Source: Alphaproteobacteria bacterium | GTDB lineage: Bacteria > Pseudomonadota > Alphaproteobacteria > Micropepsales > Micropepsaceae | Assembly (NCBI GenBank): GCA_025361185.1 | Contig: JANYAR010000095.1 | Coordinates: 1 to 64,000, forward strand | Direction: 5' to 3' | Length of the DNA: 64,000 nt | In this document: piece by piece, positions 16,989 to 20,822 of the stretch | Numbering within the stretch: position 1 is the stretch's first letter | Layout: the number at the start of each line of letters is the position of its first letter | Position numbers and translations under genes: made by a program | The notes under the pieces: generated by a model | What the model saw: the letters and a program-made list of their open reading frames with translations, nothing else | The model's database searches: none | Told to the model about the DNA's origin: nothing

Positions 16989-17582
16989 TTAAGCAAAGTC
17001 CTTCGCCAGCGCCGCGCGCGCTTCGGCGGTCAGGACCGCCATATGGCCGTAGTTGGGATGCGACAGACCCAGCACCACCCGCTCGCTGCTGCCCCGGAAA
17101 TGGGCGATCTGGTCAGGGGTCAGCTTGAAGCGCAGCCAGTGGACCGATGAAGTTTTGCCGTCCGCCGTGGTGCGGTCGTCATAGTCGGTGGGTGTGGCAG
17201 CGATCACATCACCGCCGATTTCCAGGAACACGTTTTCCTCGATTCCGCCCAGGGTCAGCAGCACGGTATTGCGGCGGTTTGCGTCTTCGATCTCCAGCAT
17301 CATGGTGGCGATCAATTCATCGCCCTGCGGGATCAGGGGATTGTAGACTTCCAGCTCACCGGCGATCTGCTCCTCGCCGCCTTTTTCGATGCGCAGCATT
17401 TCCTGCACCTGCAGCCACATGGTGGCGTAATTCTCGAAATAAAAGGTGGCGAACGGCCCAACCTCGACGCGGCGCAGCTTCTTCATCGGCACCAGATTGG
17501 CCTTCAGCGACTTGCGCTGCTGGTCATATTCGGGGACCGAGAGAATGTCGGCTTGTGTGATCTTGCGTTGGGCTTCGGGCAT
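16989..17582 (-). CDS. DUF3501 family protein
   Basis: A 197-residue soluble protein starting MPEAQRKITQADILSVPEY at an ATG with GGAG 6 nt upstream. The family's conserved parts are visible: RRVEVGPFATFYFENYATMW, a Glu/Met-rich helix (VQEMLRIEKG) and the C-terminal HWLRFKLTPDQ and LGLSHPNYGH. No catalytic motif is known and there is no signal peptide. In other proteobacteria the family travels with the Fe-S/CCG-domain gene that lies directly upstream here (110-nt gap) and with rubrerythrin. Together with the Irr/ICE context, that points to iron or peroxide physiology; this is inference. Confidence 0.9.
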   Translation of the reverse strand: MPEAQRKITQADILSVPEYDQQRKSLKANLVPMKKLRRVEVGPFATFYFENYATMWLQVQEMLRIEKGGEEQIAGELEVYNPLIPQGDELIATMMLEIEDANRRNTVLLTLGGIEENVFLEIGGDVIAATPTDYDDRTTADGKTSSVHWLRFKLTPDQIAHFRGSSERVVLGLSHPNYGHMAVLTAEARAALAKDFA

Positions 17583-17692: not shown

Positions 17693-19042
17693 TTACTCAC
17701 ACTTCAGGCCAAAGGCGCGGGCCATGATCTGGATGGGATGTTCGGGCTCGCGCGCGGGCGTGTCGGCCCCGTTTGATTCAAGATGGGAGACGATATGCAT
17801 GGCGGCCAGCGGGCAATCTGAAACAATGTGACCCCGCGGCTTAGCGCCCGCCGCCTTGAATACCGGCTTGCCCACCTTCACGGCCAGATCATGGGTCGGT
17901 TTGACCACGCCGAAGGTGCCGCCATGACCCGAGCAGCGCTCGATCACGTCAACCGGCGTGTCCGGAATCATCTTCAGCATTTCCGCCGCCTTGGGGCCCA
18001 TATTCTGGGCCCGGGCATGGCAGGCCAGATGTACCGTGACGCCTTCGGGCAGGGGCGTGAGGCCTGGCGGCAAGCCTTCTTTCTTGGCGACATCCACCAC
18101 ATATTCGTCGATGTCGAAGGTGTTTTCCTGCACGCGCTTGATGTCCGGATTGTCGGGACAAATCAGCGCCCATTCGAATTTCAGCATCAACCCGCAGGAG
18201 GCGGTGAGGGCGACGATGTCAAATCCCTGGTCGATCAGCTTGCAGAGTTCCCTGGAGACCTTGGCGGCATTCTGCGCCACGCGGTCCAGCTCGGCCCGTT
18301 CCAGAAACGGCATGCCGCAGCAGCCGGGATAGGCGATTTTGGTTTCCACGCCGATGTGGTTGAGCACGGCGCGGGCATCCATGCCGGTTTCCGGCTTGTT
18401 ATAATTGACAAAGCAGGTGGCATAGAGCGCGGCCTTGCGTTTGCCGAAGGCAGGAGCGGCGGCGTTGACCTCGTTTTCCTTCTGCTTGGCGGTGGAAACG
18501 AAAGTGCGGGCATGGAATTTCGGCAAAGTCGCCTTGGCGTCGATGCCGGCGGTCTTTTCCATCAGCGCCCGCACCGGCTTGTTCTTCTTGTCCGACGCCC
18601 AATTGATGATCGGCGAGGCGAAGCGCGCCATTGTGCCGTTGCGGTCCATCTCCGCAAGCTGGGCTTGCGTGAAGTCTTTGTGGCCCTTTTGGGCTTCGAC
18701 AAAACGGTGACGCAGCATCAGATGCGGGAAATCCAGCATGAAGGAATGCGGCGGCACATAGGGACATTTGGTCATGAAGCACATGTCGCAAAGCGTGCAG
18801 GCTTCGACCACGGGTTTGAAATCGTCGGATTCCAGGTGCTCGACATCTTCCTTGGGACTGTTGTCGATCAGGTCGAACAGGCGCGGAAAGGAATCGCAGA
18901 GATTGAAGCAACGCCGGCAGCCGTGGCAGATGTCGAACACCCGGCGCATTTCCGCGTCCAGCTTCGCCGCATCGGCAAAGTCGGGATCCTGCCATTTGAT
19001 GATCTCGCGGGTAGGGGCGCCCAGGCTGCCTTCGCCGGTCAT
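17693..19042 (-). CDS. Heterodisulfide-reductase-type Fe-S protein with CCG domains
   Basis: A 449-residue protein. The N-terminal 8Fe ferredoxin-like module has CHGCRRCFNLC (near residues 39-49) and CTLCDMCFMTKCP (near 81-93), each able to bind a 4Fe-4S cluster. The C-terminal half has two CCG-type segments: GCCGMPFLE with an earlier Cys in YATCFVN, and ERCSGHGGTFG with an upstream Cys-His in HLACHARAQ. This resembles GlpC, LutA/GlcF and HdrD, subunits that pass electrons to or from quinones or thiols. There are no membrane segments. With rubrerythrin upstream and DUF3501 downstream, it may be the electron carrier of a peroxide-reducing system, which is inference. Confidence 0.88.
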   Translation of the reverse strand: MTGEGSLGAPTREIIKWQDPDFADAAKLDAEMRRVFDICHGCRRCFNLCDSFPRLFDLIDNSPKEDVEHLESDDFKPVVEACTLCDMCFMTKCPYVPPHSFMLDFPHLMLRHRFVEAQKGHKDFTQAQLAEMDRNGTMARFASPIINWASDKKNKPVRALMEKTAGIDAKATLPKFHARTFVSTAKQKENEVNAAAPAFGKRKAALYATCFVNYNKPETGMDARAVLNHIGVETKIAYPGCCGMPFLERAELDRVAQNAAKVSRELCKLIDQGFDIVALTASCGLMLKFEWALICPDNPDIKRVQENTFDIDEYVVDVAKKEGLPPGLTPLPEGVTVHLACHARAQNMGPKAAEMLKMIPDTPVDVIERCSGHGGTFGVVKPTHDLAVKVGKPVFKAAGAKPRGHIVSDCPLAAMHIVSHLESNGADTPAREPEHPIQIMARAFGLKCE

Positions 19043-19546: not shown

Positions 19547-19606
19547 GTGGCTCTCCTTGCAAAATTTCGGCGCCAGACTGACCCCATCCCAAGAGGAAGT
19601 CAACAG

Positions 19607-19623
19607 TTTAGAATAATTCTAAT
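19607..19623. promoter_or_regulatory. ICE-type Irr operator upstream of rubrerythrin
   Basis: The sequence TTTAGAA-TAA-TTCTAAT matches 13 of the 14 defined positions of the iron control element TTTAGAA-N3-TTCTAAA; the inner 15 bp are a perfect palindrome. It lies 61 nt upstream of the rubrerythrin start, just upstream of a possible -35 hexamer TTGACT (19603-19598, minus strand). Irr binds ICE sites when iron is scarce and represses or activates depending on position. The irr gene itself starts about 460 bp away. Confidence 0.8.
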
Positions 19624-19649
19624 ATAAGAAAACGACTCGCAAGAAGCGG

Positions 19650-20081
19650 CTAAGTCCGCCGGACGCGGACGACGACATCGACGCGGTCCACCGACAAGCC
19701 GGGCGGCGGTGTGGGAACGCCCGCCACGGCGATGCTTTCGCCGGGGATGTCGATCAGCAATCCTTCGCTTTCCAGGAAAAAATGCTGGTGGTCACCGGTA
19801 TTGGTATCGAAATAGCTGCGCGCCGCATCGACGATGACCTGCCGCAGCAGGCCGGCTTGCGTGAATTGATGCAGGGTGTTGTAGACGGTGGCGAGCGAGA
19901 CTTTCACGCCCGACTTGGTGACTTGGTCATGCAGGCTTTCGGCGGTGACATGCCGGTCACAGTCCAAAAACAGAAGCCCCGCCAACTCCACCCGCTGGCG
20001 GGTTGGACGCAGGCCCGCCTGGCGCAGCCGCCCTGTTGCCAGGGCCGCCAAAGCTTTGCCGTTGCGAGAGGCTTTGCCCAT
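19650..20081 (-). CDS. irr: Iron response regulator Irr (Fur family)
   Basis: A 143-residue Fur-superfamily regulator. The winged helix includes LRPTRQRVELAGLLF and VSLATVYNTLHQFTQAGLLRQV. The dimerisation domain has SYFDTNTGDHQHFFLESEG, the His-rich region of Irr (often HHH, here HQH), and ends LLIDIPGESI. It lacks the CxxC zinc pairs of Fur and PerR, as is normal for Irr. In rhizobia Irr senses haem status, is active in low iron and binds ICE motifs. Here one ICE lies 75 nt upstream of irr itself and one before rubrerythrin, which implies autoregulation plus control of the neighbouring unit. Confidence 0.87.
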   Translation of the reverse strand: MGKASRNGKALAALATGRLRQAGLRPTRQRVELAGLLFLDCDRHVTAESLHDQVTKSGVKVSLATVYNTLHQFTQAGLLRQVIVDAARSYFDTNTGDHQHFFLESEGLLIDIPGESIAVAGVPTPPPGLSVDRVDVVVRVRRT

Positions 20082-20155
20082 GAACTTGCGTCCCTCGTTT
20101 GGCTTGACCCGCCTATAAGTGGCGCGGCAACCCTGCTAGACTGTAAAAGATATAT

Positions 20156-20172
20156 GTTAGAACCTTTCTAAG
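20156..20172. promoter_or_regulatory. ICE-type Irr operator between irr and fabA
   Basis: GTTAGAA-CCT-TTCTAAG keeps the full inner palindrome TTAGAA-N3-TTCTAA and differs from the ICE consensus only at the two outermost bases. It lies 75 nt upstream of the irr start and 93 nt upstream of fabA. Autoregulation of irr is the likelier reading. An effect on fabA cannot be excluded. Confidence 0.75.
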
Positions 20173-20264
20173 CAAGCAGCCTGGCGTTCGCGGGTAGCCC
20201 ATCGCGTACTTTTGGGGTAGGGAACCTCCCGGAAACGCCAAAGTTTTCAAGGAAGAACACCGAA

Positions 20265-20822
20265 GTGGACACCCCCTTGCGCAAATCCTCTTTCGATCTT
20301 CAGGGTCTTTTGGCCTGTGGCCGGGGAGAGTTGTTCGGGCCCGGCAATGCGCAATTGCCGCTGCCTCCCATGCTGATGTTCGACCGCATTACCGCCATCA
20401 GCGAGGACGGCGGTTCCGACGGCAAGGGCGAAGTCGTGGCGGAGTTCGATATCCATCCCGATCTCTGGTTCTTCAAATGCCATTTCCAGGGCGATCCGGT
20501 GATGCCAGGCTGCCTGGGGTTGGACGCTCTGTGGCAGCTGGTGGGCTTTTTCCTGGGCTGGATGGGCGGGCCCGGCAGGGGCCGCGCCTTGGGCGTGGAC
20601 GAGGTCAAGTTCACCGGCATGGTGCTGCCCACCGCCAAGAAGATCACCTACATCGTCAACCTCAAGCGCGTGATCATGCGCAGGTTGGTCCTGGGTATTG
20701 CCGACGGCATCATGAAAGTGGACGGCAAGGTCATCTATGAGGCCAAGGGGCTTCGCGTCGGTCTGTTCACCGACGCGGCCGTGGCCTTGGCGCAAAGCGG
20801 AGCGGCGCCGGCTTCCGCCTGA
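20265..20822 (+). CDS. fabA: 3-hydroxydecanoyl-ACP dehydratase/isomerase
   Basis: A 185-residue hot-dog-fold enzyme that dehydrates 3-hydroxydecanoyl-ACP and isomerises trans-2- to cis-3-decenoyl-ACP, the entry to unsaturated fatty acids. Catalytic His73 ([14 protein letters not shown]) and Asp87 (GLDALWQL) are both present at family spacing. The start is GTG at 20265, preceded by AAGGAAG at 9 nt; the N-terminus [17 protein letters not shown] matches the family. First gene of fabA-fabB-fabI, with 13 nt to fabB. Confidence 0.95.

Follow-up and report, generated by a model that had tools for sequence, protein, structure and literature searches.

The stretch of DNA analysed here (the window; 64,000 nucleotides) carries on its minus strand a gene for a Fur-superfamily regulator, irr, and a rubrerythrin operon, with a palindrome of the ICE (Irr box) type upstream of each. 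The locus contains the following features; papers are cited by PMC number.

16989..17582, minus strand: DUF3501 protein of the rubrerythrin cluster (PF12007, 200 bits)
17693..19042, minus strand: RFO, a GlpC-like Fe-S oxidoreductase of the aerobic rubrerythrin cluster (family search; name after PMC5114695)
19124..19546, minus strand: rbr, rubrerythrin without rubredoxin domain (aerobic type), 140 aa (family search; type after PMC5114695)
19575..19580, minus strand: putative weak -10 element CAGTCT, 17 nt after TTGACT (by eye, from spacing only)
19598..19603, minus strand: putative -35 element TTGACT, 4 nt downstream of the rbr ICE
19608..19622, minus strand: ICE/Irr box upstream of rbr (exact match; kept in the genus and at many irr-adjacent rbr loci of the class)
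19627..19641, minus strand: degenerate Fur-like 7-1-7 box TGCGAGTCGTTTTCT, differing from TGNGAATNATTCNCA at four positions and lying upstream of the rbr ICE at 4 nt (less degenerate in some relatives, at roughly this position)
19650..20081, minus strand: irr, Fur-superfamily regulator Irr, 143 aa (curated Irr models; ligands H44, D92, H98, H100 and D111)
20157..20171, minus strand: ICE/Irr box between the divergent irr and fabA (exact match; 38 irr-side sites in the genus)
20265..20822, plus strand: fabA, divergent from irr and a possible second client of the irr-side box (TIGR01749 above cut-off)

The two palindromes match TTAGAA-N3-TTCTAA exactly, as TTAGAATAATTCTAA on the rbr side (19608-19622) and as TTAGAACCTTTCTAA on the irr side (20157-20171). 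The distance to the ATG is 61 nt for rubrerythrin (19546, minus strand) and 75 nt for irr (20081, minus strand), so that both the perfect inner palindromes and the distances given in the original prediction are confirmed. The outer T/A pair of the longer form TTTAGAA-N3-TTCTAAA is incomplete at both sites: the rbr site has the T at 19607 and a T rather than an A at 19623, and the irr site has a G on both flanks. Each is thus perfect in its 12-base core only.

Downstream of the rbr-side box, a rubrerythrin lacking the rubredoxin domain stands beside RFO and DUF3501, the composition described for the aerobic-type rubrerythrin cluster (PMC5114695). On the other side of irr, fabA-fabB-fabI run in the opposite direction from 20265, fabB and fabI being recognised from their frames only. 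The irr-side box lies 93 nt from the fabA start and could serve both irr and fabA, which makes an Irr influence on unsaturated fatty acid synthesis possible. The divergent arrangement of fabA and irr, which in the window encloses the interval 20157-20264, recurs in many loci.

The identity of the regulator was examined with curated family models. It passed NCBIfam IrrA (NF045678; 203.1 bits, cut-off 150) and NCBIfam Irr (NF045677; 189.9 bits, cut-off 170) and reached no PerR or Fur model cut-off (PerRB 66 of 250 bits, PerRA 52 of 200), in agreement with the earlier naming of the gene as irr. In an alignment to Bacillus subtilis PerR (2fe3), residues H44, D92, H98, H100 and D111 fell on PerR's five regulatory iron ligands (H37, D85, H91, H93 and D104), with D111 on the Asp at position 104 that Fur replaces by Glu. 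This H/D/H/H/D set was kept in 116/116 distinct Irr homologues taken from the collected loci (at least 60 bits to the window Irr; many closely related). The Cys residues 96 and 99 that hold structural zinc in PerR are L and E in the window Irr, and among the homologues a Cys was found at C96 in 9/116 and at C99 in 0/116. No relatives of Irr were found in viral contigs.

Two motifs linked to haem were also compared. The His-x-His haem/His-cluster motif is present (H98-Q-H100), with both His residues in all 116 homologues, and since it is kept a haem or iron input to the window Irr is possible. The Cys-Pro haem regulatory motif, a feature of the Bradyrhizobium type, is absent from the window Irr, and a CP near the N-terminus occurs in 2/116 homologues; this motif is not required in all Irr proteins (PMC7762939). 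In B. japonicum, Irr has the same iron ligands, and the first His is oxidised to 2-oxohistidine in a reaction fed by haem at the Cys-Pro motif (PMC4700492). The level of Irr drops under oxidative stress in D. shibae (PMC8007024), and in R. sphaeroides an irr mutant is more peroxide resistant and both Irr boxes serve stress genes (PMC3413700).

A scan of the whole assembly (3,532,971 bases) recovered two exact TTAGAA-N3-TTCTAA sites, both in the window, and no exact match to a reversed control pattern. The expectation that further hits would fall before iron and haem genes therefore failed, as no exact match lies elsewhere in this genome. Allowing one mismatch gave four sites compared with five for the reversed control, which marks these sites as noise in the window genome, and they were rejected as additional regulon members; the two extra ones had no evident iron or haem gene downstream as read from the frames. 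By exact box the regulon of the window genome comprises two sites, which can be attributed to its gene content: katG had no match in it, and the ahpC type of its relatives only a 36% match.

Conservation was next assessed across the genus. Among loci found by protein rather than by motif, an exact box was present at 18/19 rbr promoters and 17/18 irr promoters, the remaining one in each case having a single mismatch, and the half-sites were fixed while the middle three bases varied. Searching by motif, 89 exact sites were found in 41 genus genomes, compared with 3 for the reversed control, and 39 of the 41 contained at least one. Sites were assigned by tblastn with a protein panel together with frame reading, and example targets were checked against NCBIfam/Pfam. 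All but three of the 89 (86) precede irr (38, shared with the divergent fabA), rbr (29), katG (10) or an ahpC-type peroxiredoxin gene (9). One other lies at a contig edge without a gene call, and two (L034:1501 and L158:1972, in two genus members) lie about 183 nt before a poxB-type pyruvate oxidase gene. Haem-synthesis or iron-uptake genes followed none of the 88 assigned sites. At katG, 21 of 22 genus loci had a readable start (L301 was dropped), and these comprised 10 exact boxes, 2 with one mismatch, 2 with two mismatches and 7 without a box (at least four mismatches).

The presence of Irr was checked in six of these genomes (G003, G018, G007, G010, G079 and the window genome). G003 and G018, which are the site-less genomes, had no Irr (best matches of 54 and 53 bits, respectively), although G018 is 89% complete and the absence is less certain there. 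G007 and G010 have only distant rubrerythrins (42% and 41%), yet both have kept Irr and the irr-side box. The sequence evidence supports both palindromes as conserved operators that follow Irr in their presence, a dependence seen as co-occurrence, and they would presumably be bound by it.

OxyR-like genes were surveyed in the same genomes. Among the matches listed, clear OxyR-like proteins occurred in 2/41, each divergent from a katG without ICE: G051 (C35, at about 310 kb; 235 bits) and G003 (C211, at about 6 kb; two adjoining matches of 116 and 102 bits). In G003 the OxyR-like and katG matches are both split across adjoining frames. All other genus matches listed scored at most 114 bits and were not separable from other LysR relatives, and one sub-threshold match (G017) was truncated where its contig ends. 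Among the matches listed, no genus genome passed the OxyR cut-off (329 bits), which belongs to an enteric-type model. For both reasons, the enteric-type cut-off and the restriction to listed matches, absence of OxyR from the other genus genomes is likely rather than proven.

To extend the comparison, 80 rbr loci were collected; irr was counted as adjacent if it lay upstream on the same strand within 1200 nt, and the box was sought within 200 nt. By this definition irr was adjacent to rbr in 59/80 loci. The box was exact in 23 of these 59 and had at most one mismatch in 38 (expectation from shuffled sequence, 0.12), the other 21 having two or more mismatches. Without an adjacent irr, 2/21 loci (L076 and L138) had a box with one mismatch; elsewhere in its genome the former has an Irr (214 bits) and the latter an Irr-like protein (140 bits). 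One genome (G125, locus L092) has an Irr of 199 bits and no good box at rbr (3 mismatches). Six rbr loci of other families (78-89% identity) yielded no exact box and one with a single mismatch. Parvibaculum sedimenti and Sneathiella chungangensis both have an exact box before rbr. The irr-side box was exact in only 5/80 loci, several of them from the window's own genus; of the two targets rbr is thus the more common one, and autoregulation through this exact box is local. The view of rubrerythrin as an Irr target is very probably right; it is a widespread putative target.

Several variant palindromes were seen in this collection. Four loci titled as gammaproteobacterial or proteobacterial (L096:2926, L116:2934, L129:2951 and L133:2953) have a sister palindrome, TTAGACT-N-AGTCTAA, at rbr, with one mismatch in L133; an Irr-like protein of 109-140 bits is encoded in the genomes of L096, L116, L129 and L138, and not in that of L133. 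L087 (PS1 clade by title) and L111 have TTATAATAATTATAA about 40 nt before irr, the sequence of the Bacillus PerR box. A near-box, TTAGAATAATTATAA, overlaps the predicted irr start in eight Pelagibacteraceae-titled loci (L126-L128, L131, L132 and L135-L137).

A class-wide sample of 57 evenly drawn genomes, two of them from the window's genus, was then searched. Irr was detected at 132 bits or more in 34 of the 57, with 31 over the cut-off. The exact motif occurred in 21 genomes, 19/34 with Irr and 2/23 without (Fisher p = 2.7e-4; own genus counted in), and 15 of the 34 Irr genomes had no exact site. Outside the genus, 30 exact sites stood against 34 for the reversed control. As this raw number is not above the control, the class-wide case rests on the placement of the sites and on their split by Irr: the Irr genomes had 27 motif sites and 10 control sites, the Irr-less genomes 3 and 24. 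Of the 30 sites, 19 precede peroxide-linked genes (rbr 7, two of them in one promoter; peroxiredoxin 5; katG/catalase 4; dps 3). Two precede Fe-S genes of G083, one iscR-like and one nfuA-like, neither of which reaches its NCBIfam cut-off. The other 9 are of other or unassigned type with no peroxide link, and include all three sites of Irr-less genomes. No haem-synthesis or iron-uptake gene was found among the assigned class sites. These assignments were made by frame reading and panel matches rather than by a curated scan of each, and gene neighbours were read for the motif sites only. A second set of 22 genomes, chosen for carrying rbr and biased in that most have an exact box, gave 27 sites (reversed control, 1): 17 at rbr, one at irr (G066, which is genus genome G046 again) and nine others, namely two each at katG, dps and VIT-family transporter genes, single ones at a catalase and a peroxiredoxin gene, and one where a trkA-like frame ends, before a trkH-like frame.

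The class-wide raw count, 30 to 34, is what would be expected if the palindromes had arisen by chance. Against this stand the 89 to 3 ratio in the genus, the fixed half-sites with a variable N3 at loci chosen by protein, and the 38 of 59 irr-adjacent rbr loci where 0.12 were expected. We regard the probability of chance palindromes as negligible, and for the window and the genus a chance origin was rejected on the strength of conservation.

The geometry of the promoters bears on the sign of regulation. TTGAC follows the box at a distance of 4-7 nt in 56/60 distinct exact rbr sites (4 nt in 39, 5 nt in 9, 6 nt in 6 and 7 nt in 2). Of the four sites outside this range, one is at L100 and the others are additional boxes in L130 and L234, two promoters at which three and two tandem Irr boxes, respectively, flank TTGAC. 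A TATATT-like -10 at about 17 nt was noted by eye in several other rbr loci. At ahpC, TTGAC lies 10-11 nt before the box in 4/12 sites, which places the box between -35 and -10. The katG sites are divided among a box upstream of -35 (4/14), a box over -10 (4/14) and no TTGAC (6/14), and of the three catalase sites one has the box upstream of -35 and one between -35 and -10. A box between these elements or over -10 is compatible with repression.

Activation, too, is compatible with a site fixed immediately upstream of -35, and this is a point against reading Irr as a PerR-like repressor. Irr might activate rbr by recruiting polymerase at this position while repressing irr, ahpC and katG; the rigid 4-7 nt spacing is as such a mechanism would predict, and Irr is described as acting positively or negatively depending on the position of ICE (PMC7762939). 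However, the katG and catalase boxes lie either upstream of -35 or over or between -35 and -10, and as both layouts occur at the same gene types, a single sign would fit them only if it were repression. Activation of peroxide defence by a regulator that peroxide destroys would also make little sense. We consider activation of rbr unlikely, and repression from both positions is the reading adopted below.

A second palindrome was found at some rbr promoters. TGNGAAT-N-ATTCNCA, with at most two mismatches, lies upstream of the Irr box in 22/59 rbr sites (for example L012, L017, L065, L089 and L168), at 4 nt in 14 of the 22, compared with an expectation of 0.08 from mononucleotide shuffles; one of the 22 (L130) is itself an ICE. 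At the same threshold it was found in 0/42 irr, 0/14 katG, 0/12 ahpC and 0/5 dps sites. In the Pelagibacteraceae-titled L079 and L091 it stands at 8 nt and resembles the classical Fur box consensus. Among Irr-less alphaproteobacterial rbr loci, TGCGAAT-N-ATTCGCA with at most one mismatch was present in 5/11. The simple reading is that rbr would be under dual Fur and Irr control in some lineages, the Irr half having been lost where Irr was lost.

This raises the question of whether another Fur-family protein, Fur or PerR, could be the one that binds the palindromes. A Fur-like box just upstream of ICE at some rbr promoters would be in keeping with this, as would the second Fur-family protein, of about 40-60 bits, in most genomes. 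The Irr-less genomes argue otherwise. In the 13 examined (G003, G018 and 11 rbr-carrying genomes, most of these titled sphingomonad or caulobacter) good boxes were lacking, although a Fur-type paralogue was found in 12, and the window regulator itself reached no PerR family cut-off (66 bits vs 250). Binding by another member of the family is in our view very improbable.

The classic rhizobial model offers a different account of the input, in which Irr senses haem and iron, and rbr would be an iron-linked target repressed at low iron and released when haem is plentiful. The regulator belongs to the Irr family and keeps the His-x-His haem site; binding of ICE by apo-Irr is relieved by haem in rhizobia (PMC7762939); mbfA, which is rubrerythrin-like, has been verified as a target of Irr (PMC3413700); and the box precedes Fe-S genes in one class genome (G083). 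The targets of Brucella Irr are iron genes as well: seven DAP-seq targets are described as iron metabolism genes, and the available text contains no catalase or peroxide term (PMC10374146). On the other hand, no exact site precedes haem or iron-uptake genes in the window genome, the 88 assigned genus sites or the assigned class sites, and the Cys-Pro motif is absent here and rare in the homologues (2/116). Haem- and iron-dependent control of the rhizobial kind is a real, if doubtful, possibility for this locus.

We think it likely instead that Irr here runs a PerR-like peroxide-defence regulon, of which the aerobic rubrerythrin operon would be the most widespread target. The proposal builds on the observed conservation of the operator, its dependence on the presence of Irr, the classes of target gene, the promoter geometry and the conservation of the ligands. 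In this model, Irr encoded between the two palindromes would bind both as operators and, when bound, restrain its own gene and the rbr-RFO-DUF3501 operon. Oxidation of its iron site by peroxide (or by haem plus oxygen), or loss of Irr, would release the operon, and the rubrerythrin system thus produced would remove peroxide. The same operator is present in relatives at part of the katG, ahpC-type peroxiredoxin, catalase and dps genes, and Irr would act like a PerR in these non-rhizobial alphaproteobacteria. The original suggestion that rubrerythrin links haem or iron status to peroxide reduction is supported in part: its peroxide half is favoured by the peroxide-defence targets, and its haem and iron half is weaker, none of the assigned sites standing before a gene for haem synthesis or iron uptake. 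Since the assigned sites lie mainly at peroxide-scavenging and iron-sequestering genes, the link would be primarily to peroxide defence, and judged from the sequences the functional label should shift in that direction, away from haem/iron status. Several observations weigh against the model: the 15 of 34 Irr genomes in the class sample that have no exact site, the 21 of 59 irr-adjacent rbr loci with a poor box, the 7 of 21 box-less katG loci, and P. ubique, where rbr rises 1.57-fold under iron limitation with Irr abundance unchanged, contrary to the prediction for a low-iron Irr repressor (PMC2864753).

A broader hypothesis, which we advance tentatively and hold at somewhat less than even confidence, is that Irr is at root a peroxide regulator of Alphaproteobacteria: a PerR-type sensor without structural zinc, with the aerobic rubrerythrin promoter as its most widespread site. 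Lineage by lineage katG, ahpC, catalase and dps would have been recruited, in some replacing OxyR; the rhizobial haem-iron regulon would be a later elaboration, and this history would take in the Irr-like proteins of gammaproteobacteria that have a sister box at rbr. Two reports count against this hypothesis and against the peroxide-defence model alike: in Magnetospirillum, katG and dps are credited to OxyR, and IrrB is also present (PMC12912731), and the Brucella Irr targets are iron-metabolism genes (PMC10374146).

Knowledge of Irr as a haem/iron regulator comes from work on rhizobia and Brucella. If the peroxide-defence role holds across other alphaproteobacteria, Irr fills a post held elsewhere by OxyR or PerR, the poorly understood rubrerythrin-RFO-DUF3501 system gains a regulator, and the origin of Irr becomes a testable question for which cultivable species can be named (Parvibaculum sedimenti and Sneathiella chungangensis). 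A literature search for Irr with catalase, PerR-like or katG found no such regulon described, which is weak evidence of novelty as most subscription papers lie outside its coverage. The genus and class pattern appears to be new, and part of it may be known from Rodionov 2006 or RegPrecise.

Compared with the rhizobial Irr/ICE regulon of Bradyrhizobium and Rhizobium (PMC7762939), the window regulator scores above the cut-offs of the curated Irr models, and the core of the box is identical. It differs in that no exact box was seen at haem or iron-uptake genes, the assigned targets are mainly peroxide enzymes and the Cys-Pro motif is missing. Rhodobacter sphaeroides Irr resembles the present case in having a very small regulon, and its targets there, mbfA and ccpA (cytochrome c peroxidase), both have oxidative-stress roles (PMC3413700); here the target would be rbr, joined in relatives by katG, ahpC and dps. 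In Rhodobacter OxyR is active as well (PMC8007024). The aerobic-type rubrerythrin cluster has the identical three genes, and its description makes no mention of Irr in the main text (PMC5114695). The Irr operator and the adjacency of irr are added to it by the present analysis.

The Bacillus subtilis PerR regulon comprises catalase, ahpC and dps-type targets together with autoregulation, and its box is of the form TTATAAT... The window Irr is not a PerR by family score, lacks the structural zinc Cys 96/99 and has the box TTAGAAT... rather than TTATAAT... The two systems are alike in the five iron ligands, including the Asp at position 104, and in their peroxide-defence targets and autoregulation, which for Irr are putative; the placement of the operators would fit control of peroxide-defence genes of the PerR kind.
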